The notes below the pieces were generated by a model that did no database searches, was not told where the DNA came from, and saw nothing but the letters and a program-made list of their open reading frames with translations. From Enterovirga sp. (GTDB lineage Bacteria > Pseudomonadota > Alphaproteobacteria > Rhizobiales > Beijerinckiaceae), in NCBI GenBank assembly GCA_028290695.1, contig JAQGJJ010000216.1, positions 1 to 32,297 on the forward strand: 32,297 nucleotides of DNA, given 5' to 3'. The translations under genes and the position numbers were made by a program. Positions 1 to 26,783 of the stretch are shown in pieces; position 1 is the stretch's first letter, and the number at the start of each line of letters is the position of its first letter.

Positions 1-3508
<3,508 letters not shown>

Positions 3509-3524
3509 GGCAGGGGACAGGACC

Positions 3525-5663
3525 ATGGCCGTCCAGGCTCCGGAACGGATCAACATCCTCCTCGTCGACGACCAGCCGGCGAAGCTCCTCAGCTATGAGG
3601 TGATCCTGAGCGAGCTCGACGAGAACCTGATCAAGGCGAACTCCGCCCGGGAGGCTCTGGAGCACCTGCTGAAGACGGAGGTCGCCGTCATCCTCCTGGA
3701 CGTGTCCATGCCGGAGCTCGACGGGTTCGAGCTCGCCAGGATGATCCGGGACCACCCGCGCTATCAGAAGACCGCGATCATCTTCGTATCCGCAATCCAG
3801 ATCACGGAGATCGACAGCCTGCGCGGCTACGAGGCCGGTGCGGTGGATTACGTGCCGGTCCCGGTCGTGCCCGAGGTCCTGCGGGCCAAGGTGCGGATCT
3901 TTTCCGAGCTGTACCGGAAGACCCGCGAGCTCGAACGGCTCAACGCGGACCTGGAGCGACGGGTGGCCGAGCGCACCGCCGCGCTCGAGGCCTCCGCGGC
4001 GCGGTTGCGGGACAGCGAGCATCGCCGCAACCTCGCCATGGCGGCCGGCCGCATGGGTGCCTGGGAGTGGGACATCGTTCTCGACCGGTACGTGTGGGAC
4101 GAGGGCCAGTTCCGGATCTTCGGCGTAGACCCGGCGGAGTTCGAACCCACGGCCGCCAATGTAGACAGCCTGATCCATCCGGAGGACCGCGAGAGCATCC
4201 GGACGGTTGCGCTGGAGGCCGCAGTCAGCGGCCGGTACCGGGACCGCGAGTTCCGGGTCAGGCGGCCCGACGGCAATCTCCGCTGGTGCATGGCCAGCGC
4301 GGCCGCCACCCTGGACGAGGCGGGCCGCCCGGTGCGCCTGTCCGGCGTCACGCACGACATCACCGAGCGCAAGCTTGCCCAGCAGGCCCTCCAGCAGCTC
4401 AACGAGCAATTGGAGCAGAGGATCGAGCAGCGCACCCGCGAGCGGGAAACCGCCCTGGCGCAGCTCTTCGAGGCCCAGAAGGTCGACACGATCGGTCATC
4501 TGACCGGCGGCGTCGCGCACGACTTCAACAACCTGCTGATGGCGGTGCTCGGGAGCCTCGAACTGCTCAAGAAGCGGCTTCCGCCGGATGACGCGCGCTC
4601 GCACCGGCTCCTCGGCAATGCCGTGCAGGGAGCCGAGCGCGGGGCCGCGCTCACCCAGCGGCTGCTCGCCTTCGCACGACGTCAGGAGTTGAAGCCGGAA
4701 ACGGTGAACGTCTGGAAGCTCATGTGCGGGATGGAGGACCTCCTGGCCCGGGCGGTCGGGCCCGGCATCACCATCGAGAAGCACCTCCCGAGCGGGCTGC
4801 CCTCTGTCCGGGTCGACGCCAACCAGCTCGAGCTCGCGATCTTGAACCTGGCCGTGAACGCGCGGGACGCGATGCCGCTCGGCGGCTCGCTGTCCATCGT
4901 CGGCTCCGAGCAGCGCATTCCAGCGGGCGATACGCTGGGCCCGCGCGGGCTGTCGCCGGGCTCCTATATCAGGCTCGACGTGGTCGACACCGGGATCGGA
5001 ATGGACGAGGCGACGCTTGCGCGTGCGACCGAGCCGTTCTTCACGACAAAGGGACCCGGCAAGGGCACGGGGCTCGGATTGTCGATGGTGCAGGGCCTCG
5101 CGGTGCAGTCCGGTGGCGCCATGACGGCGACGAGCGAGCCCGGACGCGGCACCACGATCGCGCTGTGGCTGCCGCAGGCCGAGTGCGAGGACCTGCCGGC
5201 CGAGCCCGGGGAGGCCGCGTCGGAGGACGCGGACGCCGCGATCCGGCCCGAACTCACCGTGCTGGTAGTGGACGATGATCTCCTCGTATCCGCCGGCACG
5301 GCAGCCATGCTGGAGGATCTCGGCCACCGGGTCGTGGAAGCGAGTTCCGGCACGCAGGCGCTCGAGGCGCTTCGGAGCGGGGCGCCGCGCATCGATGTGG
5401 TGATCACGGATCACGCCATGCCGGGCATGACGGGCCTCGAGTTGGCCCGACGGATTCAGGAGACCTTTCCGAGGATGCCCATCATCCTGGCGAGCGGCTA
5501 TGCCGAGGCGCAGGAACTGGCCGATTACGGCGCAGTGCCCCGGCTGGCGAAACCGTTCCGGCAGAGCGAACTCGCCGCGGTCATTTATGCGACCCGCACA
5601 GGCGGCGCGGGCCTGGCGAGCGAGGCGCCCCCGCCCGTGGTTGCGGCCGGCTGCGAGGGCTGA
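3525..5663 (+). CDS. Hybrid histidine kinase: N-terminal REC, coiled-coil, PAS/PAC, HisKA, HATPase_c, C-terminal REC
   Basis: ATG at 3525 (MAVQAPERINILLVDDQPAKLLSYE). REC motif DVSMPELDG, PAS/PAC segment (MGAWEWDIVLDRYVWDE...GVTHDITERK), H-box GGVAHDFNNLLMAVLGSLELL, G-boxes DTGIGMDE and GKGTGLGLSMV, and C-terminal REC VLVVDDD...DHAMPGMTGLEL. The ORF-track start at 3405 overlaps the upstream gene and is unlikely. Confidence 0.93.
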   Translation: MAVQAPERINILLVDDQPAKLLSYEVILSELDENLIKANSAREALEHLLKTEVAVILLDVSMPELDGFELARMIRDHPRYQKTAIIFVSAIQITEIDSLRGYEAGAVDYVPVPVVPEVLRAKVRIFSELYRKTRELERLNADLERRVAERTAALEASAARLRDSEHRRNLAMAAGRMGAWEWDIVLDRYVWDEGQFRIFGVDPAEFEPTAANVDSLIHPEDRESIRTVALEAAVSGRYRDREFRVRRPDGNLRWCMASAAATLDEAGRPVRLSGVTHDITERKLAQQALQQLNEQLEQRIEQRTRERETALAQLFEAQKVDTIGHLTGGVAHDFNNLLMAVLGSLELLKKRLPPDDARSHRLLGNAVQGAERGAALTQRLLAFARRQELKPETVNVWKLMCGMEDLLARAVGPGITIEKHLPSGLPSVRVDANQLELAILNLAVNARDAMPLGGSLSIVGSEQRIPAGDTLGPRGLSPGSYIRLDVVDTGIGMDEATLARATEPFFTTKGPGKGTGLGLSMVQGLAVQSGGAMTATSEPGRGTTIALWLPQAECEDLPAEPGEAASEDADAAIRPELTVLVVDDDLLVSAGTAAMLEDLGHRVVEASSGTQALEALRSGAPRIDVVITDHAMPGMTGLELARRIQETFPRMPIILASGYAEAQELADYGAVPRLAKPFRQSELAAVIYATRTGGAGLASEAPPPVVAAGCEG

Positions 5664-5796: not shown

Positions 5797-6297
5797 TCAG
5801 CCGGCCGGCGAACCGGTGGGCCGGAACACTTCGAAGCGGCCATTCAGGTAAAGAAGAGGCGAGAAGTCCTCGTCCTGAAGGCGAAGTGCCTGCACGCTCC
5901 CGATGAACAGCGTGTGAGATCCAATCGCAACCGCGTCCGAGATCTCGCAGTCGAAGCTCGCCAGCGCTCCCTGAACCGCCGGCGCACCGGTCAGGAGTGT
6001 TGTCCAGCGATCACCGGCAAAGCGCTTGTTCCGGTCCTCCGCTGTGAAGCGCCCGGCCAGGGCGACATCGGTCTCGCCGAGCAGGTTCACGCAGAACACC
6101 CCCGCCTCCTGCATGCGGTCGTGAACCGAGCCTGACCTGTTCACGCAAACGAGGAGACACGGTCTCGGCTCGGCCGAGACGGAGCTGACGGAGGTCGCCA
6201 GGAAGCCATGGGGAACGCCGTCCTGGATCGTAGTGACGAGCGATACGCCGGAGGCGAGCCGGCGCATGCCCCGCTTGAACAGACCCGGGTCGATCAA
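5797..6297 (-). CDS. Flavin reductase family protein (HpaC/NtaB-like; FMN-binding split barrel)
   Basis: RRLASGVSLVTTIQDGVPHGFLATSVSSVSAEPRPCLLVCVNRSGSVHDRMQEAGVFCVNLLGE...ALASFDCEISDAVAIGSHTLFIGSVQAL is characteristic of short-chain flavin reductases. Probable TTG start with GAGGA upstream. Confidence 0.92.
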   Translation of the reverse strand: MIDPGLFKRGMRRLASGVSLVTTIQDGVPHGFLATSVSSVSAEPRPCLLVCVNRSGSVHDRMQEAGVFCVNLLGETDVALAGRFTAEDRNKRFAGDRWTTLLTGAPAVQGALASFDCEISDAVAIGSHTLFIGSVQALRLQDEDFSPLLYLNGRFEVFRPTGSPAG

Positions 6298-6328
6298 GGT
6301 TCACATCCTCTTCGGCGGTGCGGCCGCG

Positions 6329-7372
6329 TCAATGCAGGCCCTTGCGGGCCGGGGGACGGCAGGAATCCCGGATGATCAGGGTGGTCGGCAGCTTGAGCGC
6401 GCGCGGGGCGAGGGGCACCTGCCCGCGCATCCGGTCGAGCAGCATGGTGGCTGCATGCCGACCCATCTCCGACAGGTCCCAGCGGATTGCGGTCACGGCC
6501 GGGGAATAAAGCTCGGCCAGTTCGGAATCGCTGCCCGCCACGAGGGAGACGTCCCGTCCGACCTCCTGTCCGAGCGCCCGCAACGCGCGCAGGCTGCCGC
6601 CGAGCGTGTCCATTGCGGCAACGAGCAGGGCCGTCGGCGGCTCGGGCAGGCTCATCAGCGCCATGGTTTCCCGAAACGCGTCCTCCGTATCGAACACCCG
6701 CATCCGCACCAGGCCCGGATCGGGGGTAAGGCTCAGGGATGAATGTGCGTCCTGGAAGCCCTGGACCCGGCTGCGCGACGGAAACGCCTTCGTGTCGCCG
6801 ACGAGGAGGCCGACCCGGCGGTGACCGAGACCGAGGAGGTATTCCAGAGCGCTCTTGGCACCGCCGTAATGGTCCACCATCACCCGGTCGAGCGCCGGCA
6901 CGTGATCCCGGTCGATCAGGAGCACCGGCGCGGCTGCCTGCTCGAGCGCCTGGGCGACCCCTTTGTGCGCCTCGTCGCTGACGGTCATCATGATTCCGTC
7001 CACGCGCCGGCGTCCGAAGGCGCGCAGGAGGCTCACCTCCACGTCCGGCTTGTTCGTCGTGCTGGACAGGAGCAGCGTGTAGCCGTTCTCGCGGAAGATA
7101 CGCTCGGCTTCCTTGATGTAGGAGGCGAATTGCGGGATGTCGAAGTCGCGGATCGCGCAGGCGACCATTCTCGTGCTGCCCCCGCGCAGGCTCTGGGCCA
7201 CGATGTCGAGCTCGTATCCGAGCGCGTCGATCGCGGCCTGGACCTTGCGGCGCACCTCGGCATTGACCGTCGGATTGTCGTTGAGCACGCGCGACACCGT
7301 GCCGACGGCAACGCCCGCCGCTTCCGCGACGTCGCGCAGCTTCACCTGCTTGCGCTTGACCTCGTCCGACAC
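6329..7372 (-). CDS. LacI-family transcriptional regulator
   Basis: N-terminal HTH 'VKLRDVAEAAGVAVGTVSRVLNDNPTVNAEVRRKVQAAIDALGYELDIVAQSLRGG' followed by a periplasmic-binding-protein-like domain; GTG start. Confidence 0.96.
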   Translation of the reverse strand: MSDEVKRKQVKLRDVAEAAGVAVGTVSRVLNDNPTVNAEVRRKVQAAIDALGYELDIVAQSLRGGSTRMVACAIRDFDIPQFASYIKEAERIFRENGYTLLLSSTTNKPDVEVSLLRAFGRRRVDGIMMTVSDEAHKGVAQALEQAAAPVLLIDRDHVPALDRVMVDHYGGAKSALEYLLGLGHRRVGLLVGDTKAFPSRSRVQGFQDAHSSLSLTPDPGLVRMRVFDTEDAFRETMALMSLPEPPTALLVAAMDTLGGSLRALRALGQEVGRDVSLVAGSDSELAELYSPAVTAIRWDLSEMGRHAATMLLDRMRGQVPLAPRALKLPTTLIIRDSCRPPARKGLH

Positions 7373-7410
7373 GCCGCGCCTCCAGTACGGTGCAACTTGA
7401 CGCCGATTAG

Positions 7411-7424
7411 ATGAACCGGTTCAT
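7411..7424. promoter_or_regulatory. Candidate LacI-family operator ATGAACCGGTTCAT (perfect 14-bp palindrome)
   Basis: Lies in the lacI/MFS divergent intergenic region (7373-7457). It is palindromic with a central CG, as in LacI-family operators. The same 13-nt string recurs at 8709-8721. Confidence 0.75.
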
Positions 7425-7457
7425 AGGGGGCCTAGCGGGACAACGCAACAAGCTGCC

Positions 7458-8669
7458 ATGCTGGCTCCGGACGGATCGACACGCTTCGCCGCGACACTGG
7501 CCTTGCTCGGGGTTGTGGCTTTCGTGAACGCCCTCGGTTCCGTGATCGTGTTCCCGCTAGCCCCGTTTCTGGCCACGGATCTCGGCATCCCACCGCAGGA
7601 TGCGGCGTTCTCGACAGTATACTTCAACGGCGCCGCCGGGATCGGCGGCCTGGCGGGGGCGCTTCTGCTCGCCCGGGTCAGGCGTGTGCCCGCCCTGTGC
7701 GCCACCCTGGCAGGGCTCGCGGTGTCGAGCGCCGGGGCGGCGCTCGCACCGAACTTCGCCACGTTGCTGCTCGCCCGCCTGGCCGGCGGGCTTTGCGCCG
7801 GCCCGCTTCTCGGCATCCTCATGACGGCCGCGGCCGACGTGGCGCCGGGGCCTGCACGGGGCCGGGCGATCAGCGCCATCGTGGCATCGTACGGGTTGGC
7901 GCTGCTTCTCGGCTCGCCCATGGCCCTGGCGCTGGTCTCCTGGACGGGCACGTGGCGCGCCTCCTTCGGGGTGCTTTCGGGTCTGTGTGCCAGCCTGATC
8001 CTGGCCGTCCACCTCGTCTTCAGGGCTCGGCCCCGTCCCACATCCGAAGAATCCTCCTGGGGGATCGCCGACGTCCTGCGCCTTCTCGCGACTCCAGGCG
8101 TGCCGGGCGGCCTTCTGCTTCCGGCCTCCGCCTCCTTCGCCACCCTGCTCATCTCGCCCCATCTCGGGACCTTCGCGCTGAAGAACGGAGGTCTGACGGT
8201 GGCCGAGCTCGGGCTGGTCTACCTGATCGGAGGGACGCTGGCGCTCTTCACGGCCGGGATCACCGGCTGGGCGCTCGACCAGTTCGGTCCCGCTCTGGCA
8301 TCGGCAGTGGTCGGACTGGTGCTGACGCCGCTTCTGGCGACCGCCTTCCTGGCGAGCGTGCCGGCGGCCGTGCTCGCGCCGATACTGGGGCTCACCCTGG
8401 CCGCGCAGCTCGCCCGCAGCACGGTTGCCCAGGCGAGCGCGAGCCGGGTGCCGCGGGCAAAGGACCGCGTGGCATTCCAGTGTCTCGTGTCGGCCACCAC
8501 GAGTTTCGCCCAGGCGGCCGGCGCTGCCGTATCCACCGTTCTGCTCTCGGAAGGGCTGAACGGACACCTCGTCGGGATGGGGTGGCTCGCCGGGCTGAGC
8601 ATTGCGCTCTGCTGGATCCCGCTCTGGCTGATCATTCGCCTGGAGCGGCAGATCGCGGCAACTGCATAA
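7458..8669 (+). CDS. MFS transporter
   Basis: 403-aa hydrophobic protein with repeated TM-like segments; MFS-like pattern 'GIGGLAGALLLARVRRVPAL...GPLLGILMTAAADVAPGPARGRAISAIVASYGLALLLGSPMALAL'. Confidence 0.88.
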   Translation: MLAPDGSTRFAATLALLGVVAFVNALGSVIVFPLAPFLATDLGIPPQDAAFSTVYFNGAAGIGGLAGALLLARVRRVPALCATLAGLAVSSAGAALAPNFATLLLARLAGGLCAGPLLGILMTAAADVAPGPARGRAISAIVASYGLALLLGSPMALALVSWTGTWRASFGVLSGLCASLILAVHLVFRARPRPTSEESSWGIADVLRLLATPGVPGGLLLPASASFATLLISPHLGTFALKNGGLTVAELGLVYLIGGTLALFTAGITGWALDQFGPALASAVVGLVLTPLLATAFLASVPAAVLAPILGLTLAAQLARSTVAQASASRVPRAKDRVAFQCLVSATTSFAQAAGAAVSTVLLSEGLNGHLVGMGWLAGLSIALCWIPLWLIIRLERQIAATA

Positions 8670-8707
8670 CACTTCGACATCGAGGGGCGGCTATTTGTGC
8701 ACGCGCG

Positions 8708-8721
8708 GTGAACCGGTTCAT
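8708..8721. promoter_or_regulatory. Second candidate LacI-family operator GTGAACCGGTTCAT
   Basis: 12-bp perfect palindrome TGAACCGGTTCA at 8709-8720, about 60 bp upstream of the importer's first gene (ATG 8780). Differs from the 7411 site at one of 14 positions. Confidence 0.72.
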
Positions 8722-8779
8722 TGTCACCCGGGCGTGCCCATGGTCATCTCACTCCCGTTCTCGCTTGCGGGGGTTGAAC

Positions 8780-9781
8780 ATGCGCCTCGGTACGGTCGTT
8801 CGCCGCTTTGTCCTTGCCTCGGCTTTTGTCGCAGGCTCCTTCGCGACCCGGGGCGACCTGCGGGCGCAAGGCCTCCAGACGGTCAATTTCGCCGGCTCGG
8901 TGACCTGGATCGGCCAGGTGCCGATCCTGGTCGCCATCGAGAAGGGCTTCTTTCGTGAGCACGGGCTCGACGTCCAGGTCCAGGTGATCGCCAACTCGGC
9001 CGATCGCATCCGGGCCGTGGCAGCCGGAAGCGCGATGTTCAGCAATCTCGGGCGCGTGGCCGTCATCAGCGAGATGGCCCGTGGAAACGAGGCTTTCTAC
9101 ATCTTCGCCAATGTGGACGACTCCCCGGGGCAGGAGGGCTGCTGGGCGCGCCCGGGGATCCAGTCCATCAAGGATCTCCGCGGCAAGTCGGTTGCCGCAA
9201 ACTCCTCAGCCGAGATCACCCTGATGGGGCTTCTGGCCGAGGGCGGCATGGCGCTGAAGGACCTCGAATACCGGAACCTCCCTGGCTCCGAGATGGCCCC
9301 GGCCCTGAGCCACGGCGATGTCGAGGCTGCCTGCGTGTGGCAGCCGCTGCTCGACAGGCTGAAACAGGCGGTTCCGACCGGCAAGCTGCTCGGCACCGAC
9401 AAGGACACGGCGATCTACAAGCGCTTCGGTACGATGGCGGCCGGCGACATCGTCATCATTTCGCGCAAGGTCGCGGACACGCAGCCCGAGATCGCGAGGG
9501 GCATCGCGGCCGGTCTGCTCAAGGGCGCCGACTTCACCAACTCCAATCCCGAGGAGACCGCGAAGGCGGTCGCGAGCTATTTCCGTCAGAGCCCCGAACA
9601 GATGCTCGAGGCCATCAAGGGGTTTCAGTTCTTCGGCAGTGCCGGCTGGCCGGAGCACCTGCGCAAGCACCAGGAGCAGATGAAGTACCTCGCCGCCCTC
9701 CTGCACGAGGCCGGCAAGATACCCACGGCTCCCGATGCGGATCGCTGGGTCAACACGAGCTTCGTGCCGAAGGCGCAGTGA
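8780..9781 (+). CDS. ABC transporter substrate-binding protein, NitT/TauT/SsuA (NMT1-like) type
   Basis: Signal-peptide-like N-terminus MRLGTVVRRFVLASAFVAGSFATRGDLRAQ, then 'VNFAGSVTWIGQVPILVAIEKGFFREHGLDVQVQVIANSADRIRAVAAGSAMF'. ATG at 8780 is in frame with the 7697..9781 ORF. Confidence 0.88.
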   Translation: MRLGTVVRRFVLASAFVAGSFATRGDLRAQGLQTVNFAGSVTWIGQVPILVAIEKGFFREHGLDVQVQVIANSADRIRAVAAGSAMFSNLGRVAVISEMARGNEAFYIFANVDDSPGQEGCWARPGIQSIKDLRGKSVAANSSAEITLMGLLAEGGMALKDLEYRNLPGSEMAPALSHGDVEAACVWQPLLDRLKQAVPTGKLLGTDKDTAIYKRFGTMAAGDIVIISRKVADTQPEIARGIAAGLLKGADFTNSNPEETAKAVASYFRQSPEQMLEAIKGFQFFGSAGWPEHLRKHQEQMKYLAALLHEAGKIPTAPDADRWVNTSFVPKAQ

Positions 9782-10608
9782 TGGCCGCTCCGGATCAGGT
9801 CGCGGCCGTCGCGCCGCGCAACACGCCCTTCATCGTGCTGGCGCCGCCGTCCTGGCTCGCGCTGATCAGCCTGGCTTCCGTCCTGACCATCCTGGCCCTG
9901 TGGGCGGCCGCCACCACCTTCGGCTGGGTGTCGCCCCTGTTCCTGCCCTCTCCGGTGGACGTCGCCCGCGCGGCCGCGAAACTGGCGTCGAACGGCGATC
10001 TGTGGCGCGCGATCCTCGCCTCGTCCGCCCGCGTCTTCGCAGGGTTCTTCCTGGCTGCGGCCATCGCGATCCCGCTCGGGGTCGCGATGGCGGTGTTCGG
10101 GCCGGTCCGGGCGATGTTCAGCCCGCTGATCTCGCTGCTGCGCCCGCTGCCCTCGATCACCTGGATCCCGCTGACCATCCTGTGGCTCGGCATCGGCGAG
10201 CAGCAGAAGGTGATGATCGTCTTCCTGGGCTCGTGGATATACATCCTGCTCGCAACCTACGAGGCGACGCGGCGGGTCGATCCGCTCCTCGTCCGGGCAG
10301 CCCGCAACCTCGGCGCCGGCGACTTCACCGTCATGCGGGAGGTGATCCTTCCGGGCGCGCTGCCAGGCATTCTGGCCGGGCTCAAGGTGTCCCTCGCGAT
10401 CGCCTGGTCCTGCGTCCTGTCCGCCGAGATGATCGCGGCCCGCAGCGGCCTCGGGGCACTCATCTGGGAAGCCAAGGAGTGGGGCGACATGACCGTCGTG
10501 CTCGTCGGAATGACGTCGATCTCCCTGACGGTTCTCCTGGCCGATGCCGTCGCGGGCCGGGTCGAACTCGTCCTCCAGCCCTGGGAACGCGCGCGCCGCC
10601 GTCATTGA
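9781..10608 (+). CDS. ABC transporter permease, SsuC/TauC type
   Basis: MAAPDQVAAVAPRNTPF... with the motif 'EATRRVDPLLVRAARNLGAGDFTVMREVILPGALPGILAGLKVSLAIAWSCVLSAEM'. Start overlaps the upstream stop (TGA 9779-9781 / ATG 9781). Confidence 0.93.
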   Translation: MAAPDQVAAVAPRNTPFIVLAPPSWLALISLASVLTILALWAAATTFGWVSPLFLPSPVDVARAAAKLASNGDLWRAILASSARVFAGFFLAAAIAIPLGVAMAVFGPVRAMFSPLISLLRPLPSITWIPLTILWLGIGEQQKVMIVFLGSWIYILLATYEATRRVDPLLVRAARNLGAGDFTVMREVILPGALPGILAGLKVSLAIAWSCVLSAEMIAARSGLGALIWEAKEWGDMTVVLVGMTSISLTVLLADAVAGRVELVLQPWERARRRH

Positions 10609-10639
10609 GCGGAGCCCGCGAGCGAGCATCGAGCCGACC

Positions 10640-11440
10640 ATGTCCGCGATCCTGACAGCCGAGCATGTGACCAAGTCCTATCCCGTGCCGGGCGGGGAGA
10701 TGGTCGCGATCCGCAATCTCTCGCTCGACATCGCCGAAGGCGAGTTCCTGTGCCTGCTCGGCGCGTCCGGCTGCGGCAAGTCCACGATGCTGAACATGTT
10801 CGCGGGGTTCACGGCCCCGACGACCGGGCGCGTCCTGCTGCAGGGTCGGCCGATCACCGGGATCGAACCGCGTTGCGGAATGGTGTTCCAGTCCTACGCG
10901 CTCTTTCCCTGGAAGACCGTGCAGGAGAACATCGAGTTCCCGCTTCGGATGCGCGATGTTCCGCGGAGCGAGCGCCGAGCCATCGCGAGCTCCTTGATCG
11001 AAATGGTTCATCTCGACGGCTTTGCGGATCGCTATCCGGGCGAGCTCTCGGGCGGCATGCAGCAGCGGGTCACCCTCGCGCGCTGCCTCGCGGCCGATCC
11101 ACTCGTCATGCTCATGGACGAGCCGTTCGCCGCTCTCGACGCGATGACCCGCCAGGTCATGCAGGACGAGCTGCTGCGAATCCAGGAGCGCAGCGGAAAG
11201 ACCATCGTCTTCATCACGCACAACATCGACGAGGCCATCATCCTGGGCCACCGGATCGTGGTGATGTCGGCCCGCCCCGGCCGCATCAGGACGATCGTGG
11301 AGAACCCGCTGCCCCGGCCACGCCATGTGGGTGTCCAGACCTCGCACGCCTTCGCGGATCTCAAGGCTGAACTCTGGGCGCAGATCGAGGAGGAGGTGAT
11401 GCAGCACGTGGCCGCGTCCCGGCTCGCCGAGCACGCCTGA
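10640..11440 (+). CDS. ABC transporter ATP-binding protein, SsuB/TauB type
   Basis: Walker A LLGASGCGKST, signature LSGGMQQRVTLARCL, Walker B VMLMDEPFAALD, switch FITHNIDEAI. Confidence 0.95.
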   Translation: MSAILTAEHVTKSYPVPGGEMVAIRNLSLDIAEGEFLCLLGASGCGKSTMLNMFAGFTAPTTGRVLLQGRPITGIEPRCGMVFQSYALFPWKTVQENIEFPLRMRDVPRSERRAIASSLIEMVHLDGFADRYPGELSGGMQQRVTLARCLAADPLVMLMDEPFAALDAMTRQVMQDELLRIQERSGKTIVFITHNIDEAIILGHRIVVMSARPGRIRTIVENPLPRPRHVGVQTSHAFADLKAELWAQIEEEVMQHVAASRLAEHA

Positions 11441-11481
11441 CCGAACCATTGCCGCGCCAGCAGGACAGCCGGGAGTTGCCC

Positions 11482-12834
11482 ATGAAACCGCGCCAGATGC
11501 GCCTCGTCGCCTTTCTCAAGGCCGGCCCGACCTGTCATCATCACGGGGCCTGGCGCCACCCGGAAGCGGATAACGGCTTTCTCGAGCCGGAATGGTACGA
11601 GCACACCGCCCGCGTTCTCGAGGCCGGCTACTTCGACTGCCTGTTCTTCGCCGACGTCCTCGGACTGTACGACTACTACAACAAGAGCTTCGCCACGACG
11701 GTCGGGAAGGGCGGGGCGCTGAGCCTGCTCGATCCTCTCCCGATCCTGGCCATGATGGCGCGGGCCACCCGTCACATCGGGCTCGGCGCCACGCTGTCGA
11801 CGACCTTCCACAACCCCTACCAGATCGCCCGCACGCTGGGGACGCTCGATACCCTGAGCAAGGGCCGCATGGCCTGGAACGTCGTCACCTCGGCCAGCAA
11901 CCTCGAGGCCCAGAACTTCGGGCTCGAGGCCATTCCGGGACGCGCGGAGCGCTACGGTCGGGCGGACGAGGTGGTGCAGGCCTGCATGCGCCTGTGGGAG
12001 AGCTGGGAACCGGGCGCGCTGGTCGTCGACAAGGAGAGCGGCCGCTTCGCCGATCCGGAGAAGGTCGCCTACGCGAACTTCAGCGGCAATTGGGTCAAGA
12101 CCCGGGGGCCGCTCACCGTACCGCGCTCGCCGCAGGGCCACCCGGTGATCATGCAGGCGGGCTCCTCCGGGCCGGGCCGCGACTTCGCGGCGCGCTGGGC
12201 CGAGATGATCTTCACCCTCCAGCACACGACGGAGGATATGCGCCAGTTCCGGTCCGAGACGCGCGCGTGCCTGGCGGCCATCGGACGGGACCCGGACAGC
12301 TGTGCGGTCCTGCCCTCAGTCGACCCGATCATTGGTGAGACTGAATCGATCGCGCGTGAGAAGCAGGACTTCGTCAACAGCCTCGTCGATCCGGAGCTCG
12401 CGATGGCGCTCATGTCCTCCCATATCGGCACGGACCTGTCGCGCTACCCGATCAACGAACCCGTCGGAAACCTGTCGCTCGAGGAGGGGTCGCGGGGCTC
12501 GCTGGACGTGATCCTGCAGGGGACACGCTCGCACGGACTGACGCTCGGCGAGGCGGCGCGTCGCTATGCGACCAGCGAACTCGCCCCGCAGGTGGTCGGC
12601 ACTCCGGAGCAGGTCGCCGACCAACTCGAGGCGATGTTCACGAGCGAAGCCTGCGACGGCTTCATCCTGACCCCGACCGTGTCTCCCGGCACCTGGGAGC
12701 AGTTTTCGCGCTCGGTGGTTCCGCACCTGCAGAAGCGCGGTCTGCTGCGCCGCTCGTACGAGGGCGCGACCTTGCGGGACAACCTGCGGCTAGCATCGGG
12801 CCAGGGCGCCTCGCTGAAGGACCAGGCGGCGTGA
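11482..12834 (+). CDS. LLM-class flavin-dependent monooxygenase, NtaA/SnaA/DszA(SoxA) family
   Basis: HHGAWRHPEADNGFLEPEWYEHTARVLEAGYFDCLFFADVLGLYD...TTFHNPYQIARTLGTLDTLSKGRMAWNVVTSASNLEAQNFG...ERYGRADEVVQACMRLWESWE...HPVIMQAGSSGPGRDFAARWAEMIFT is family-typical. ATG chosen at 11482; the ORF also opens at 11449. Confidence 0.95.
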   Translation: MKPRQMRLVAFLKAGPTCHHHGAWRHPEADNGFLEPEWYEHTARVLEAGYFDCLFFADVLGLYDYYNKSFATTVGKGGALSLLDPLPILAMMARATRHIGLGATLSTTFHNPYQIARTLGTLDTLSKGRMAWNVVTSASNLEAQNFGLEAIPGRAERYGRADEVVQACMRLWESWEPGALVVDKESGRFADPEKVAYANFSGNWVKTRGPLTVPRSPQGHPVIMQAGSSGPGRDFAARWAEMIFTLQHTTEDMRQFRSETRACLAAIGRDPDSCAVLPSVDPIIGETESIAREKQDFVNSLVDPELAMALMSSHIGTDLSRYPINEPVGNLSLEEGSRGSLDVILQGTRSHGLTLGEAARRYATSELAPQVVGTPEQVADQLEAMFTSEACDGFILTPTVSPGTWEQFSRSVVPHLQKRGLLRRSYEGATLRDNLRLASGQGASLKDQAA

Positions 12835-13751
12835 CCCGCCCGGTGATCGGCTTCGTCGGGTTCGGCGAGGCGGCCAGGTGCTTCGCGGCTCACCTGGACA
12901 CGGTTTCCCCCGGCGGGCTCCTGGCCTTCTGCGACGGCCGCAGCAACCGGCCGCCCTACAGGGAGGAGTTCCGCAAGGGCGCCGAGACGGTCGGGGTCGA
13001 GCTCGTGGACGGGCTCGACGAGCTTCTCGCACGCGCGGACGTGGTGGTCTCGGCCGTCGTGGTCGCAACCGCGGCCGAGGTCGGTACCGCCATTGCGCGT
13101 GCCCTGAGACCCGGGACGCTCGTCGTCGACATCAATGCCTCCACGCCGTCGGCCAAGACGAAGGTCGCCGAAGCGGTGTCGGCCGCCGGCGGCAGCTATG
13201 TCGATGCCAACCTGATGGGCGCCGTCAGCATCTACGGCGCAGCCGTTCCGCTCTATTCCTCGGGCGACGGAGCCGAGCGCTTCGCGGCGATCTTCGGCCC
13301 GCTTGGCTTCTCGGTCGAGATCGCGGGCTCGAAACCGGGCGCGGCCGCGGCGGTCAAAATGCTCCGAAGTGTCGTCACGAAAGGCATGGAGGCGCTCATC
13401 GTCGAGGCGATGGTGGCCGCGTCCGTAGCGGGTGTCCGGGCCGAGGCTCTTCGCGGGATTTGCGAACCCATGGACGCCACCCGCTTCAGCGCCTTTGCGG
13501 ACATGTGCATCCGCACGGACGTGCTTCACGCGGAGCGCCGCGCGGTCGAGATGGACGGCGTCGCGGACGGCCTCCGGGAACTCGGCGTCTCCCCGATCAT
13601 GACGGAAGCCACGAGCGCGCGGCTGCGCGCCTCGGCTGCGCTCGACCAGCGGGACGCCTTTCTGCGCCGGGAGACATACACGGCGGACCAGGTCCTCGAC
13701 GCCTACCTGGCGGCGCTGCCTCCGAAGCCTGGGGGTGCAGACCCCGCCTGA
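12831..13751 (+). CDS. NAD(P)-dependent oxidoreductase, 6-phosphogluconate/hydroxyisobutyrate dehydrogenase superfamily with DUF1932-like C-terminus
   Basis: Rossmann motif IGFVGFGEAARCFAAHL; 'ANLMGAVSIYGAAVPLYSSGDGAERF' and 'GSKPGAAAAVKMLRSVVTKGMEALIVEAM' are typical of this superfamily. GTG start overlaps the upstream TGA (GTGA, 12831-12834). Confidence 0.85.
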   Translation: MTRPVIGFVGFGEAARCFAAHLDTVSPGGLLAFCDGRSNRPPYREEFRKGAETVGVELVDGLDELLARADVVVSAVVVATAAEVGTAIARALRPGTLVVDINASTPSAKTKVAEAVSAAGGSYVDANLMGAVSIYGAAVPLYSSGDGAERFAAIFGPLGFSVEIAGSKPGAAAAVKMLRSVVTKGMEALIVEAMVAASVAGVRAEALRGICEPMDATRFSAFADMCIRTDVLHAERRAVEMDGVADGLRELGVSPIMTEATSARLRASAALDQRDAFLRRETYTADQVLDAYLAALPPKPGGADPA

Positions 13752-13836: not shown

Positions 13837-15132
13837 CTAGGGTCGGAAGGCAGCTTCCATCGAGGCCGCGGCGTCCAGCAATTCCCGGTCGCGGCCATGA
13901 CGGCCGAACAGCATGAACCCGATGGGCAGCTCCGTGCCCGGGTTCGGCAGCGAGATGGAGCAGAGGTCGAGGAGGTTCGCCACCGCGGGATTGCGCAGCA
14001 TGAGGAGGTTCGCCCGGGCGAAGCGCTCCGGGTCGGCCTCGACGCTCGCGATGGTGGGAGGGAGCAGCGGCACGGTCGGCAGCGCCAGGGTGTCGAACGG
14101 CTCCATGCGGCGGTCGATCTCCGCCGCGAGGTTGCGGCGCAGGCGGGTGAGGGCGACATAGTGGCTCGCCGGCGCAGAGGCCCCGCGCCGGATACGGGCG
14201 AGGACGTTCGGGTCGATCAGGTGAGCGCTCGCGACGATCCGATCCCCGTGAATCTCGGCCGCTTCCATGGCCGGCAGCGAGGCGATGCTGGTCGCGGTGT
14301 CGAGTTGCCCGAGCAGATCCTCGATGTCGATATCGACGACCCTGGCACCGGCGCCCGACAGACGGGATAGGGCTGCCTCGAAGGCCCGCTCGACCTCCGG
14401 ATCCAGCTCGGAGAAGAGACGGCCGCGGGGCACCCCGATCCGCAGGAGAGACAGCGGCATCGGCCTCAGCGGCTCGGGCTCCGCATTGGTCAACTCTGCG
14501 GCCGCCGCCGCGCATTCGGCGACCGTGCGGGCGAGCGGCCCGATCGAATCCAGCGTGTACGAGAGCGGGAACGCGCCCTCGACCGGCACCCTGCCGACCG
14601 TCGGCTTGAAGCCGACCACGCGGTTCAAGGCGGCCGGGATGCGCACGGAGCCGCCCGTGTCGGTGCCGATCGCGATCTCGCTCGAGCCGTCGCCTGCGGA
14701 GACGCCCGCGCCGGACGACGAACCGCCCGGGACCAGGCGCGGATCGAGGGCATTGCCCGGCGTGCCGCAATGCGGGTTGAGCCCGAGACCCGTGAACGCG
14801 AACTCGGACATGTTGGTCTTGCCGAGGATCACGGCGCCGGCCCGGCGGAGCCGGCGGACCACAGGGGAATCGGCGGCCGCGGCGGCCCCGGAGGCGAGAG
14901 CCGCCGAGCCCGCCCCGGTCGGCTCGCCCTTCACGTCGAACAGGTCCTTGATCGACGCGATCGTGCCGTCCAGGGGGCCGAGCGCGATGCCGAGCGCATG
15001 CCGGGCATCCGCGGCATCCGCCGCGGCGCGCGCCGCGTCCGGGTACAAACGGGTGAAGACGTTGCGCGAGCCGCCGGCGCCGATCCGCGCCAGCCGGTCC
15101 TCGACCTTGTCGCGAACGGACGGCGCGCTCAT
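13837..15132 (-). CDS. Amidase (amidase-signature family)
   Basis: GPLDGTIASIKDLFDVKGEPTGAGS...AVILGKTNMSEFAFTGLGLNPHCGTPGNALDPRLVPGGSSSGAGVSAGDGSSEIAIGTDTGGSVRIPAALNRVVGFKPTVGRV: AS-family core with the Lys-Ser-Ser triad context. Confidence 0.96.
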   Translation of the reverse strand: MSAPSVRDKVEDRLARIGAGGSRNVFTRLYPDAARAAADAADARHALGIALGPLDGTIASIKDLFDVKGEPTGAGSAALASGAAAAADSPVVRRLRRAGAVILGKTNMSEFAFTGLGLNPHCGTPGNALDPRLVPGGSSSGAGVSAGDGSSEIAIGTDTGGSVRIPAALNRVVGFKPTVGRVPVEGAFPLSYTLDSIGPLARTVAECAAAAAELTNAEPEPLRPMPLSLLRIGVPRGRLFSELDPEVERAFEAALSRLSGAGARVVDIDIEDLLGQLDTATSIASLPAMEAAEIHGDRIVASAHLIDPNVLARIRRGASAPASHYVALTRLRRNLAAEIDRRMEPFDTLALPTVPLLPPTIASVEADPERFARANLLMLRNPAVANLLDLCSISLPNPGTELPIGFMLFGRHGRDRELLDAAASMEAAFRP

Positions 15133-15965
15133 GTCCCGACCCTCAGCGGAGCAGCGAGCTTGCGCAGATAGGCGATGACCGACAAGGCCGTGATGCGGCC
15201 GGTGCGCGGGTTCTCGGACGGCACGTTCTCGATGGACATCGAGAAGCTCGCGCTGTCAGCCACGACCTCGATGCGGTGCACGTTTCGCTCGAGCGCGGGG
15301 TCGGCCCAGATCTCGAGCGTGGTCCGGTCCGGTCCGATCCCGGCCAGCGACAAGGCCACGGCGACGTTGAGATTGGCCGGGAAGCCGATCGCGGCCTGCC
15401 GCGGCGTTCCGATGAAGACGCGCCGGGGCTCGGGCAATCCGAGGACCTCGATCCCGTTCTCGACGAGGTAAGGGGCACCCGCGAGCCCTCCGGGAGGCTT
15501 GCGCGTGATCATGCGGACGGAGGTGATGGTTCCTTCCGCCGCGGCCGAGACGGCGTCCAGCCCGAGCAGGGCTCCGGTCGGCACCGCGATCTGTCCCCCG
15601 TGCTGGCGGGCGAGCCCGATCAGATGCTCATGGGTCAGAAGCGCGCCGGCGCTCAACACCACGACCGACTTTCCCGCACGGAGAAAGGGCTCTGCGATCT
15701 CAGGGAGGAGCCTGGCGGGCGCGCTCTCGACGACGATGTCCGCCAGGGGCTCGAGCTCCTCCAGGGCGACAACCGGGACCGGTCTCGCGAAGCCGCCGAG
15801 GCGGGCGCGGGCACGGTCCTGGTCGCGCGCGGAAGCGGCCGAGAGGACGAGGCCGTCGATGCCGTGGTCGAGCGCCTCCGCGACCGCGAGACCGACCGTG
15901 CCGAGACCGGCGACCGCTACCCGAAGGGGCGTTTCGCGGGAGGCGAGGGCAGGCCGGGCACTCAT
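15129..15965 (-). CDS. Aspartate dehydrogenase-like NAD(P)-dependent oxidoreductase (NadX/DUF108 family)
   Basis: LRVAVAGLGTVGLAVAEALDHGI...VVESAPARLLPEIAEPFLRAGKSVVVLSAGALL...GGQIAVPTGALLGLDAVSAAAEGTITSVRMITRKPPGGL...FPANLNVAVALSLAGIGPDRTTLEIWADP...SMSIENVPSENPRTGRITALSVIAYLR. ATG (complement) at 15965. Confidence 0.9.
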   Translation of the reverse strand: MSARPALASRETPLRVAVAGLGTVGLAVAEALDHGIDGLVLSAASARDQDRARARLGGFARPVPVVALEELEPLADIVVESAPARLLPEIAEPFLRAGKSVVVLSAGALLTHEHLIGLARQHGGQIAVPTGALLGLDAVSAAAEGTITSVRMITRKPPGGLAGAPYLVENGIEVLGLPEPRRVFIGTPRQAAIGFPANLNVAVALSLAGIGPDRTTLEIWADPALERNVHRIEVVADSASFSMSIENVPSENPRTGRITALSVIAYLRKLAAPLRVGT

Positions 15966-16852
15966 CGGGCCGTCTCCGGGGCCGGGCAGAGCCCGGCATA
16001 ATGGCGGGCGATGTCCCCCGCCGTCGTGAACCAGATCCTGTCCTGAAGCGCGGCGATCCGGTCGAGCACGCGCCGGAACTGCTTCAGGCGGAACGGCTGC
16101 CCGACGATGAAGGTGTGGATGGTGATCCCGCACACCAGCGGCTGCCCGCGGGACTGCTCGAGCATCTCGTCCAGGTTATCGATCGCCATGTCGGCAAAGG
16201 CCGCCCCGGTGCCGTCGTGCAGAACGATCATGGGAACGTCATTGACCTCGTGCGGATACGGCATGGCCAGCAAGGGACCGGACGGCGTGCGCATCCAGAC
16301 GGGCTGGTCGTCGATCGGCCAGTCCATCGTGTACAGATACCCCGATCCGGCCAGCAGGTCCTCGGTCGCGGCGCTCGGATGGGCGCCGGGGCTCATCCAG
16401 CCTGCCGGCGGCCGCCCCTCGTGGCGGCGGATCGCATCGGTCGTTTCGCCGATCAGCCGGGCCTCGTCCTCGCGGGCGAGGCCGTTCTGATGTTCGGAAT
16501 TGGTGCGGCCATGCGCCACGATCTCGTCGCCCCGCTCCCGAAACGCAGCGACCAGCTCCGGGCAATGCTCGTAGCACTCCGTGTTGAGCAGCACCGTCAG
16601 CGGCAGGCCGTATTGCGCGAACAGGTCGACGAGCCGCCACCCGCCGACCCGGTTGCCGTATTCGCGCCAGCCCCAATTGTAGCTGTTGGGGTGCGACAGG
16701 CCCGGGGAATAGGCGAGGCCCAACCCCGAGCCGTAGGAGAAATGCTCCACGCAGAGCGCCACGTACACGGCCAAGCGCTTGCCGTCCGGCCAGCTGAAAT
16801 CAGGCCGCCGGACGATGGGCGAGTAGGAAAACTGCGGGGGTGCTGGGAGCAT
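15962..16852 (-). CDS. Polysaccharide deacetylase-family protein, PuuE/allantoinase-like
   Basis: PDFSWPDGKRLAVYVALCVEHFSYG...NWGWREYGNRVGGWRLVDLFAQYGLPLTVLLNTECYEHCPELVAAFRERGDEIVAHGRTNSEHQNGL...AGWMSPGAHPSAATEDLLAGSGYLYTMDWPIDDQPVWM resembles PuuE-type NodB-fold proteins. Confidence 0.88.
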   Translation of the reverse strand: MLPAPPQFSYSPIVRRPDFSWPDGKRLAVYVALCVEHFSYGSGLGLAYSPGLSHPNSYNWGWREYGNRVGGWRLVDLFAQYGLPLTVLLNTECYEHCPELVAAFRERGDEIVAHGRTNSEHQNGLAREDEARLIGETTDAIRRHEGRPPAGWMSPGAHPSAATEDLLAGSGYLYTMDWPIDDQPVWMRTPSGPLLAMPYPHEVNDVPMIVLHDGTGAAFADMAIDNLDEMLEQSRGQPLVCGITIHTFIVGQPFRLKQFRRVLDRIAALQDRIWFTTAGDIARHYAGLCPAPETAR

Positions 16853-16879
16853 GGCGAAGCGACCTTTCGGCGGGCTGGA

Positions 16880-17848
16880 TCAGGGCCGGTAATCGCCCGG
16901 CGCGACAACCGAGCTAAGATCGATGGAGGTGAGGTTTTCGGCCGTGACCAGGAGCGCCGGGGTGACCACGCGCTCCTCGACCGGCTGCTTCGCGGCCGCC
17001 TTGCCGGCCTGGGTCAGCGCGGCCCGGCCCTGGGCCACGATCTGCTGGATGGACGTGCAGGCGAGTTCCCCGCTCTTGAGAAGCTCCTGGGCGGTCGGGC
17101 TGAGGTTCGAGGCCGACACCTTCACGCCCGGGATCTTCTTGGCGTCCTTCAGGGCCGAGATTACGCCCGCCGCCATGTCGTCGGTCGCGGCATAGACGCC
17201 GTTCAGGTCGGGGAAGCGCTGCGCCCAGTCCTCGGCGGTGGTCAGCGCGGCGTTCCGGTTGTCGCCCTGCCGGGATTCCGCGACCACCGTGATCGTCCCG
17301 CCGGCCTTCGCGAGCGTCTCCTTGAAGCCGCGGGCTCGCAGGTCCGCCCAGACCTGCCCGGCGGGGCCGGCCATCATGGCGACGTTGCCCTTTCCGTTCA
17401 GCGCCTTGCTCAGGCATTCCGCCTGAAGCCGGCCCATGTCGTAATGGTCCGCGCTGATGCGCGAGGCGAGCTTGGGGGTGTTCGGCGGCGACGAAATGCC
17501 GATCACCGGGATCCCGCGCTCGATCGCCTGCTCGACGACGCCCTTCAGCGCATCGCCGTTCGTGGCCCCCACGATGATGGCGTCGACCTTGCGCTGGATG
17601 AGGTCCTGGATCTGCGAGATCTGCTGGCTGGAATTCGCATCCCCGCCCGCATTCAGCTTCAGGAGCGTGACGCCGTCCTTCTTGGCCTGCTCCTCGGCGC
17701 CGTACACGGCGGACACCCAGAACGAGGATGCGAGGTTGGGTACCGCCATGGCGATCGTTTTCTGCTGGGCGGCGGCCGGGATGGCGGCGAGGCCTGCCAG
17801 GGATCCGGCGACGAAACCGGCGAGGATGAGCGGTGTCCGAAGTGTCAT
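16880..17848 (-). CDS. Sugar-type ABC transporter substrate-binding protein (RbsB-like, Peripla_BP_4)
   Basis: Signal peptide MTLRTPLILAGFVAGSLAGLAAIPAAAQQ, then KTIAMAVPNLASSFWVSAVYGAEEQAKKDGVTLLKLNAGGDANSSQQISQIQDLIQRKVDAIIVGATNGDAL. Confidence 0.93.
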   Translation of the reverse strand: MTLRTPLILAGFVAGSLAGLAAIPAAAQQKTIAMAVPNLASSFWVSAVYGAEEQAKKDGVTLLKLNAGGDANSSQQISQIQDLIQRKVDAIIVGATNGDALKGVVEQAIERGIPVIGISSPPNTPKLASRISADHYDMGRLQAECLSKALNGKGNVAMMAGPAGQVWADLRARGFKETLAKAGGTITVVAESRQGDNRNAALTTAEDWAQRFPDLNGVYAATDDMAAGVISALKDAKKIPGVKVSASNLSPTAQELLKSGELACTSIQQIVAQGRAALTQAGKAAAKQPVEERVVTPALLVTAENLTSIDLSSVVAPGDYRP

Positions 17849-18792
17849 GGCTGGCGTCTCCTTGGGCGGCGGGGTGAAAGGTGAAACCCGTGCATGCCGT
17901 GGGCCACGAGCCCGGCCGCGATGATCACGACGCCGATCGCGGATTGCGCCACGAAGGGAGAGATGCCGGAGGTGTTGAGGCCCGTGAGCAGAACCTGCAC
18001 CAGCAGGGCGCCGGCAGCCGATCCGGGGACGCTGGCCATCCCCCCGGTCAGGGGCGTGCCCCCGATGACCGCGGCCGCGATGGCTTGCAGCTCCATCCCG
18101 CTGCCCTCGATCGGCAGGCCCGTGCCGGCCCGCAGCATCATCAGCGTGCCGGCCAGCCCCGCGAAGCATCCGCAGAGCGCATAGGCATGGCGGAGCGTGC
18201 GGGCTTCGTCGAGGCCGACGAGCGGCACCGCGTCCGGGTTGGACCCGAGCATCAGGATCCGGCGCCCCACCATCGTGCGGGTGAGCACGAGGTGGGCCCC
18301 CACCACCGCTGCGAGCGCGACCCAGTCGGCGGGCGGCAGCGCGGTGCCGCCGGAGAAGACCCAGGAGGCCGCGTCCAACTCCAGGGGCACGGCCTGCCCG
18401 TCATCCGTGACCAGGAGCGCGATCCCCCGCACTCCGATGAGCGTGGCCAAGGTCGCGATGACCGGCGTGATCCCGAGGGTTCCGATCAACAGGCCGTTGA
18501 GCATCCCGCACGCGAACCCGACCACCGGACCAAGGGCCAGCCCGACAGCCCCGAGAGTGTTGGCGGCCCAGGCCGCGGCGACGCCAGCCAGCGCCGCGAC
18601 GGCGCCCACCGAGATGTCGAATCCGCGTGTCGCCAACGCAAAGGTCTGGCCGGCCGCGAGGAGGGCCAGGACCCACATCTGCGACGCCATGTTGAGAAGG
18701 TTGCCGCCCGCGGCGAAGCCCGGGACGGCGGCCCCGAAGGCGGCCGCCGCGACCAGGATGGCGAGCGGGGCGACAAGCAGCCTCGGGCTCAC
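17845..18792 (-). CDS. ABC transporter permease (RbsC-like)
   Basis: ATRGFDISVGAVAALAGVAAAWAAN...GMLNGLLIGTLGITPVIATLATLIGVRGIALLVTDG-like...LGSNPDAVPLVGLDEARTLRHAYALCGCFAGLAGTL. GTG start (complement 18792) overlaps the upstream gene's stop. Confidence 0.9.
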   Translation of the reverse strand: MSPRLLVAPLAILVAAAAFGAAVPGFAAGGNLLNMASQMWVLALLAAGQTFALATRGFDISVGAVAALAGVAAAWAANTLGAVGLALGPVVGFACGMLNGLLIGTLGITPVIATLATLIGVRGIALLVTDDGQAVPLELDAASWVFSGGTALPPADWVALAAVVGAHLVLTRTMVGRRILMLGSNPDAVPLVGLDEARTLRHAYALCGCFAGLAGTLMMLRAGTGLPIEGSGMELQAIAAAVIGGTPLTGGMASVPGSAAGALLVQVLLTGLNTSGISPFVAQSAIGVVIIAAGLVAHGMHGFHLSPRRPRRRQP

Positions 18793-19763
18793 GACCGCGC
18801 GCCTTTCCGACCGAACCGCGTCCAGAGGCCACCCGGCCAGCCGTCCCGCTGGAGCAGGACGGCCGCCAGGATGACGACCGCGATCGCGATCTGCTGGTAG
18901 GCGACCGGCAGATTGAGCAGCACGACGGCGTTGTTCAGCATGGCGATCACGGCGACCCCGAAAAGGACGTTCGCGGCCCTTCCCTGGCCCCCCGCGAGCG
19001 GGATGCCACCGATCGCGCAGGCCGCGATCGTCTCGAAGGCGAGGTTCGGGGCGAGCCCGGGCTGCCCGGACGCGACCCGGCTGGTCAGGATCGCGGCGGC
19101 GAGTCCGACCAGGAGTCCCGCGGTGCCGTAACCCGCGACGACGGCCGAGCGCGTGGGAAGCCCGGACAGGCGGGCGGCGACCGGGTTCGCGCCGACGAGA
19201 CACCAGATCCGGCCGATCCGGGTGTGGCGGAGAAGAACATGCGTCCCGAACAGCACCAGGACGGCCGCGACGATCGGAACCGGGATCCCGGCCACCCGGC
19301 CGCGCGCGAGCCAGGCGAAGGCGGCGCTCGGGGGCGCGTCGATGGGCAGCCCGCCCGCGAGACTTGCGGCGAGGCCCGAGGCGATCATCAGGGCCCCCAG
19401 GGTGACCAGGAACGGCGGCAGGTCGAAGCGGCTGACGAGCCAGCCGTTGACGGTCCCGATGACGGCAACCGTCGCGACGCCGATCGCGAGCGCCCCGACG
19501 GGGCCTACGTCAGGCAGCGCCGACACCGCCAGGACGCTGGACAGCGCCGCCGACGCTCCGAAGGAGAACTCGACGCCGCCGAGCACCAGCACGATCGCCT
19601 GTCCGCATGACGCGATGGCCAGGATCGAGGCGATGCGTAGCACGTTCTCGAGGTTTCCGGCCGTGGCGAAGCGCGGGACGACGAGCGCGAACAGCAGAAA
19701 GATCGCGAGCGCGACCGGGGCGGAGGGCGGCACGGCTCCGGCCAGGCGACGAAGCGCCCTCAT
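18789..19763 (-). CDS. ABC transporter permease (RbsC-like), second subunit
   Basis: SCGQAIVLVLGGVEFSFGASAALSSVLAV...VNGWLVSRFDLPPFLVTLGALMIASGLAASLAGG...VGANPVAARLSGLPTRSAVVAGYGTAGLLVGLAAAI...ETIAACAIGGIPLAGGQG. ATG (complement) at 19763. Confidence 0.92.
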   Translation of the reverse strand: MRALRRLAGAVPPSAPVALAIFLLFALVVPRFATAGNLENVLRIASILAIASCGQAIVLVLGGVEFSFGASAALSSVLAVSALPDVGPVGALAIGVATVAVIGTVNGWLVSRFDLPPFLVTLGALMIASGLAASLAGGLPIDAPPSAAFAWLARGRVAGIPVPIVAAVLVLFGTHVLLRHTRIGRIWCLVGANPVAARLSGLPTRSAVVAGYGTAGLLVGLAAAILTSRVASGQPGLAPNLAFETIAACAIGGIPLAGGQGRAANVLFGVAVIAMLNNAVVLLNLPVAYQQIAIAVVILAAVLLQRDGWPGGLWTRFGRKGARS

Positions 19764-21379: not shown

Positions 21380-21421
21380 GCATGAGGGCGGCTCATCCAT
21401 GATGCGCCGAAACCGGAGAGC

Positions 21422-23281: not shown

Positions 23282-23309
23282 CTTGGTGGATTGTCGACAT
23301 TGACACAAG
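23282..23309. promoter_or_regulatory. Candidate GntR operator: CTTG-N4-A-N-TGTCGACA-N-T-N4-CAAG dyad
   Basis: CTTGGTGGATTGTCGACATTGACACAAG is symmetric about 23295/23296. The inner 8 bp TGTCGACA is a perfect palindrome and the outer CTTG/CAAG arms match. It sits between divergent gntR and the ABC operon. Confidence 0.5.
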
Positions 23310-23371
23310 CGGCCCGGCATGATCGCGTGTTGGAAACGCGCAAACGAGACGCGGATTCTGGAGGAAACGGG

Positions 23372-24940: not shown

Positions 24941-24954
24941 GGCCGTCGCACGCC

Positions 24955-26782: not shown

Positions 26783-26783
26783 C

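Follow-up and report, generated by a model that had tools for sequence, protein, structure and literature searches.

A rare, probable catabolic regulon joining a LacI-family gene, a conserved palindrome and a DszA-like flavin monooxygenase in Enterovirga sp. and five other genomes

A 32,297-nucleotide stretch of Enterovirga sp. DNA (contig JAQGJJ010000216.1; the window) carries at 5797–13751 eight genes that join a two-component flavin-dependent monooxygenase system to a LacI-family regulator and two kinds of transporter. We re-read the coordinates and searched the eight proteins against Pfam and NCBIfam profiles, and all gene calls, positions and families of the initial annotation were confirmed. 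On the minus strand lie a flavin reductase of a RutF-like subgroup, the probable supplier of reduced flavin mononucleotide (FMNH2; 5797–6297, TTG start; PF01613, 138 bits), and, co-directional with it across a verified gap of 31 bp, a LacI-family repressor (6329–7372; PF00356 and PF13377). On the plus strand follow a major facilitator superfamily (MFS) transporter (7458–8669; PF07690, 96.8 bits), the NMT1/SsuA-like substrate-binding protein (SBP; 8780–9781; PF09084, 85.9 bits), TauC/SsuC-like permease (9781–10608; PF00528, 89.6 bits) and ATPase (10640–11440; PF00005, 116 bits) of an ATP-binding cassette (ABC) transporter, and an FMNH2-dependent luciferase-like monooxygenase (LLM) of the NtaA/DmoA family with a DszA/BdsA-like active site (11482–12834; TIGR03860, 501 bits). 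The last gene encodes a DUF1932 oxidoreductase with a predicted beta-hydroxyacid-dehydrogenase fold (12831–13751; PF09130, 39.4 bits) and overlaps the LLM gene by 4 bp, the GTGA overlap being likewise verified. A simple promoter and terminator scan gave no signal above chance. The source genome is a 2.73-Mb draft that is 61.5% complete, so the absence of a gene from it proves little.

Both arms of the locus carry the palindrome (A/G)TGAACCGGTTCA(T/C), with one copy separating lacI from the MFS gene and one ahead of the ABC operon. Operator 1 (ATGAACCGGTTCAT, 7411–7424) is a perfect 14-bp palindrome within the 85-bp divergent lacI/MFS intergenic region, and operator 2 (GTGAACCGGTTCAT, 8708–8721), which differs from it by one end base, lies 58 bp upstream of the SBP gene start. 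The core TGAACCGGTTCA occurs twice in the entire draft, both times in the regulon, and the chance expectation for the palindrome, from base composition, is ~0.06 sites per 2.7 Mb. Across six genomes, 16/16 palindrome sites fall in the regulon locus and none elsewhere in ~34 Mb (for example 2, 2, and 4 locus-confined sites in two Bosea and Agrobacterium vitis, respectively), and a reversed control pattern gave zero matches in the whole-genome searches. In A. vitis the operon is split into units, and each of its four operators lies upstream of one of them. The locus thus shows what is expected of an autoregulated local regulon of the LacI family, namely palindromic operators at the regulated promoters that are conserved together with the regulator. 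Because lacI and the reductase gene run in the same direction only 31 bp apart, operator 1 probably covers the reductase too, in which case the split reductase and the monooxygenase would share their control. From these patterns we infer that a dedicated LacI acts through both operators, binding them as a repressor. Our literature search on the operator string returned no relevant paper, and the gene surroundings of the closest LacI and SBP homologues on plasmids were too uninformative to name the inducer.

The regulon recurs in other genomes and is rare. The LLM, used as a query over 84,980 species genomes, gave 56 loci, and the linked set is present in only three of them (two Bosea, one A. 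vitis). When the DUF1932 protein alone was searched for in Bosea and in the genus of A. vitis, two further genomes were added, and as a predictive check both of these also had the regulon, locus-confined operators, and a reductase. Beyond the source genome the total is therefore three Bosea and two grapevine Agrobacterium/Allorhizobium-type genomes, and the regulon is found in 1/398 genomes of the source order (the source itself), 3/67 Bosea, and 2/63 genomes of the A. vitis genus. Bosea keeps the same order, with lacI divergent from MFS–SBP–permease–ATPase–LLM–DUF1932 and 60–83% identity per gene, and A. vitis is rearranged into SBP–permease–ATPase–Ldh_2, a DAO gene, lacI, MFS, and LLM–DUF1932–flavin reductase. 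LacI orthologues at the same locus are 76–77% identical in Bosea and 63% in A. vitis. The eight-gene grouping is far from chance, since five other genomes have the same set together with a common operator, and the earlier proposal of a single catabolic unit is backed by that operator and the conserved neighbourhood, with LLM and DUF1932 forming a conserved pair across the regulon genomes. LLMs that are 67–70% identical and occur elsewhere (L014–L019, L053, L054) were rejected as members of the same system: their neighbours vary, and no DUF1932, transporter, or operator was found within the stretches examined.

The monooxygenase is an NtaA/DmoA-family enzyme that retains the active-site residues of BdsA. 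It scores 501 bits against TIGR03860 (cut-off 279.7; model positions 1–422 of 422), and the nearest solved structure is BdsA at 436 bits, with LadA next at 275 and EmoA at 182. F12, H20, F56, S139, R159, Y160, F246, and H316 are all identical (BdsA numbering, PMC5819316). In BdsA, S139 is essential, and the enzyme loses >90% of its activity when either of the substrate-contacting residues H20 and H316 is mutated (PMC5819316). LadA, DmoA, and YtnJ have no histidine in the H316 column. In one DszA model Gln80 hydrogen-bonds the sulfone (PMC11134501). This column is Ala79 in the window LLM and Ala in the sampled regulon enzymes, with Gln retained in near relatives. Four regulon LLMs form one clade (support 100/99) that groups with alphaproteobacterial DszA-side enzymes, outside the DszA clade. 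An assignment as DszA proper was rejected on this separate clade, the Gln80 to Ala replacement, and the lack of linked dszB or dszC; no DszC (acyl-CoA-dehydrogenase-like) or desulfinase is present among the annotated neighbours, the rest of the genome not having been searched. Membership in SsuD or RutA finds no support either, at 39.3 bits against 518.2 for TIGR03565 (37–39 bits over the SsuD models) and 41.7 against 498.3 for RutA. AlphaFold predicted the LLM at a mean pLDDT (predicted local distance difference test) of 58.9, and this model was set aside as too weak. Other DszA-side LLMs, 58–60% identical and on large plasmids of Mesorhizobium (L067, L069, L074), have ectoine-, aminotransferase-, and hydroxyacid-dehydrogenase-type genes nearby, contexts suggesting that the wider LLM family may take part in amino-acid-like catabolism.

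The partner protein carries a DUF1932 domain (PF09130 at 39.4 bits, cut-off 25). Its predicted fold (mean pLDDT 67.5) is nearest to 3qsg, 4ezb, and 1i36, whose titles assign no function, and then to beta-hydroxyacid dehydrogenases, and the model accordingly places it in a DUF1932 branch of a beta-hydroxyacid-dehydrogenase-like fold. K176 of the KMLRS motif, which we take to be the equivalent of the catalytic Lys of beta-hydroxyacid dehydrogenases, is invariant among the regulon orthologues. Plasmid-borne DUF1932 relatives (35–37% identity) adjoin 4-carboxy-4-hydroxy-2-oxoadipate aldolase genes, which would fit a hydroxyacid or oxoacid substrate, a hint from relatives too distant for function to be transferred. 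A literature search found no functional paper on DUF1932. The pairing had been described as unusual for an LLM; the pair itself is conserved, but a dehydrogenase beside an LLM has a precedent in the sulfo-ASMO (alkanesulfonate monooxygenase) pathway, where SquD/SmoC is coupled with the oxidoreductase SquF/SmoB (PMC12890257).

A flavin reductase is present in the regulon locus of 6/6 genomes and is non-orthologous between lineages. In Bosea it is 31% identical to the window reductase and coupled after DUF1932 by an ATGA overlap; in A. vitis it is 23% identical and lies ~420 bp downstream of DUF1932, beyond a small open reading frame (L013:12202–12615, plus strand) that by eye resembles an N-terminal fragment of a protein akin to Asp/Glu/hydantoin racemases. 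The part of the initial annotation that linked a reductase to the monooxygenase therefore stands in every lineage, but the lacI–reductase arrangement is seen in the source genome only. The best NCBIfam model for the window reductase is RutF, at 123.9 bits against a cut-off of 254.75, which leaves it outside RutF proper. Its relatives at 48–55% identity include one in a rutA cluster and one in a DszA-side LLM operon, the latter on a Paraburkholderia plasmid that joins LLM, RidA, and a 49% identical reductase. It could be that the lacI-linked reductase does not serve the LLM, that another cellular reductase provides FMNH2, and that the linkage is incidental, as the non-orthology and three other reductase matches in the source genome would allow. 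Two of those three adjoin other LLM genes (C98, C28), however, and with a reductase at every regulon locus and a relative of the window enzyme sharing an operon with a related LLM, we regard incidental linkage as improbable; the context favours partnership with the LLM. Relatives of the RutF-like reductase also turn up repeatedly in Alphaproteobacteria (L114–L117, L113), in clusters that include rutA, isochorismatase, nitrilase, and amidase genes.

Transporter similarity does not name a substrate. The SBP scores 113.3 bits against the SsuA family (TIGR01728, cut-off 163.5) and 48.6 against the taurine SBP (cut-off 304.25), and the permease scores 158 against TauC (cut-off 342). With SBP, permease, and ATPase all below informative cut-offs, we rejected any substrate call on these grounds, and the SsuABC/TauABC-like label of the initial annotation is weak. 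Its count of two importers finds no support, as the best NCBIfam matches of the MFS protein are exporter models, all under their cut-offs (MxcK, 113 bits against 525, and Cmx/CmrA). For this reason the MFS protein may export the product or a metabolite.

Taken together, we think it probable that LacI, the two operators, the ABC transporter, the reductase, the LLM, and the DUF1932 protein form a substrate-inducible catabolic regulon. LacI at operator 1 would control lacI–reductase and the MFS gene, and at operator 2 the ABC–LLM–DUF1932 operon, until an inducer (substrate or product) frees it from the operators. Sequence analysis establishes the gene content, the conserved operators, the LLM family with its active-site residues, and the reductase linkage; we infer the order of the enzymes, and the substrate below, from their families and neighbours. 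The ABC transporter would bring in a small acidic compound, the reductase would generate FMNH2, and the DszA-like LLM, with FMNH2 and O2, would oxidise it and cleave a bond beside a heteroatom. The DUF1932 dehydrogenase would then interconvert a carbonyl and a hydroxyacid from the LLM step.

The most likely substrate class, put forward tentatively, is a nitrogenous carboxylate degraded via an imine, either a cyclic imino acid or an N-substituted amino acid. The operator-controlled ABC unit of A. vitis includes an Ldh_2-type protein that scores 318 bits to piperideine-2-carboxylate reductase (DpkA-like; next model 125), and a DAO-type protein behind its own operator (AmaA-like) has L-pipecolate oxidase as its nearest model (254 bits, short of the cut-off of 600). 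Together the two genes favour an imine-forming nitrogenous substrate, and RidA in the operon with a related LLM is a hint of nitrogen. More speculatively, a DszA-type enzyme may have been repurposed with DUF1932 to break down a cyclic imino acid or related nitrogen heterocycle oxygenolytically, a step that we judge unlikely as it stands. Several observations weigh against the regulon model as a whole or against its nitrogenous substrate. The DpkA-like and AmaA-like genes are not in the Bosea or window loci and may be an A. vitis addition that is silent on the core substrate. A genuine ssu operon lies ~3 kb downstream of the regulon in one Bosea (L011; SsuD, 624 bits), and the other two Bosea have ssu-type genes in the corresponding position, which favours sulfur. 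Flavin reductases often supply FMNH2 promiscuously, and three non-orthologous ones occur here. Lastly, the second vitis-group copy (G903) is 99–100% identical to the first in the genes directly compared, so the independent lineages number only about three.

An organosulfur substrate draws on that same Bosea context. Here the ABC transporter would import a sulfonate, sulfone, or sulfur heterocycle, the LLM would cleave the C–S bond like DszA or SquD, and DUF1932 would reduce the remaining carbonyl like SquF/SmoB. The closest solved LLM is BdsA and both sulfone-contacting histidines are retained (PMC5819316, PMC11134501), the transporter is SsuA/TauC-like, albeit under every cut-off, and sulfo-ASMO is built on the same plan, with an LLM, a reductase, and a dehydrogenase (PMC12890257). 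Yet the sulfone contact Gln80 is Ala in the regulon clade, neither dszB nor dszC is linked, the regulator is a LacI and not a known sulfur-starvation regulator, and the additional A. vitis enzymes are nitrogen-type, not sulfur-type, leaving organosulfur somewhat unlikely. A route like that for ethylenediaminetetraacetate (EDTA) and nitrilotriacetate (NTA) would be a specific form of the nitrogenous carboxylate reading: uptake of an aminopolycarboxylate or opine-like compound by the ABC transporter and N-dealkylation by the LLM to an oxoacid. The gene kinds match the Chelativorans pathway (ABC, EmoA, EmoB, and IdaA downstream; PMC7312458), the LLM is likewise a TIGR03860 protein, and a DAO oxidase lies inside the A. 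vitis regulon, but the enzyme is far nearer BdsA than EmoA in score and neither the window nor the Bosea regulon locus has a DAO gene. We consider such uptake and dealkylation unlikely, and hold similar doubt over the later steps, in which the secondary amine would be oxidised (by DAO in A. vitis) and the oxoacid converted by DUF1932.

The regulon is flanked in the window by other gene groups. At 13837–22348 (minus strand) and 21422–22390 (plus strand) lies a separate convergent cluster whose upstream end carries a LysR gene and which encodes an amidase (PRK05962, above cut-off), an aspartate dehydrogenase (PRK13302, above cut-off), a PuuE-allantoinase-like polysaccharide deacetylase, a TorT/RbsB-like binding protein, two BPD_transp_2 permeases, and a double ABC ATPase. 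This cluster (13837–22390) has no TGAACCGGTTCA operator and looks like another nitrogen-compound catabolic operon. On the other side, two adjacent hybrid histidine kinases (23–3508 and 3405–5663, plus strand) combine HAMP/GAF/HisKA with three receivers and then receiver/PAS/HisKA/receiver; their reading frames overlap by ~100 bp and the second probably starts later. The plus strand at 23291–30507 encodes an ABC transporter of the dipeptide/nickel type, made up of an SBP_bac_5 protein, two permeases, and two oligo_HPY ATPases, and after it an AMP-binding acyl-CoA ligase.

The catabolic regulon at this locus is real, rare, and uncharacterised, made of familiar parts in a combination undescribed in the papers searched. 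Neither the databases nor the open-access papers we searched contained a characterised pathway with this gene set, and the earlier interpretation is partly supported. A single repressor, a single operator sequence, and two enzymes lacking an assigned substrate make the regulon compact and testable. The conserved operator is a direct handle, as the identity of the inducer would point to the substrate of this DszA-side LLM branch and of the DUF1932 dehydrogenase. If the cyclic imino acid or nitrogen heterocycle reading is true, it would reveal a previously unknown pathway and a function for a DUF1932 dehydrogenase. The regulon also shows a two-component monooxygenase that has, in each of three lineages, a different, non-orthologous flavin reductase.

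Four known systems resemble parts of the regulon. The Rut pathway shares a RutF-like reductase, and the A. vitis rutA cluster has a 48–50% identical one, but the LLM falls far below the RutA cut-off and no rutB, rutC, or rutD was seen in the regulon. The Chelativorans EDTA/NTA pathway (EmoAB, IdaA) has a TIGR03860 LLM, a reductase, and ABC uptake (PMC7312458), with a DAO-type oxidase matched in the A. vitis version, whereas the window LLM is distant from EmoA and accompanied by DUF1932 and LacI. Sulfo-ASMO (SquD/SmoC, SsuE/SmoA, SquF/SmoB) likewise combines a two-component LLM and reductase with an oxidoreductase that uses NAD(P)H and acts on the product of cleavage (PMC12890257), but its LLM is of the alkanesulfonate-monooxygenase type, for which the window LLM remains at 37–39 bits where the cut-offs are >500. 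The closest counterpart in sequence is DszA/BdsA, the nearest solved relative within TIGR03860 with its active-site residues kept; the window LLM stands on a separate branch with Q80 replaced by Ala, H156 by Arg, and L230 by Ser, and its partners here are LacI, an ABC transporter, and DUF1932 in place of nearby dszB and dszC.

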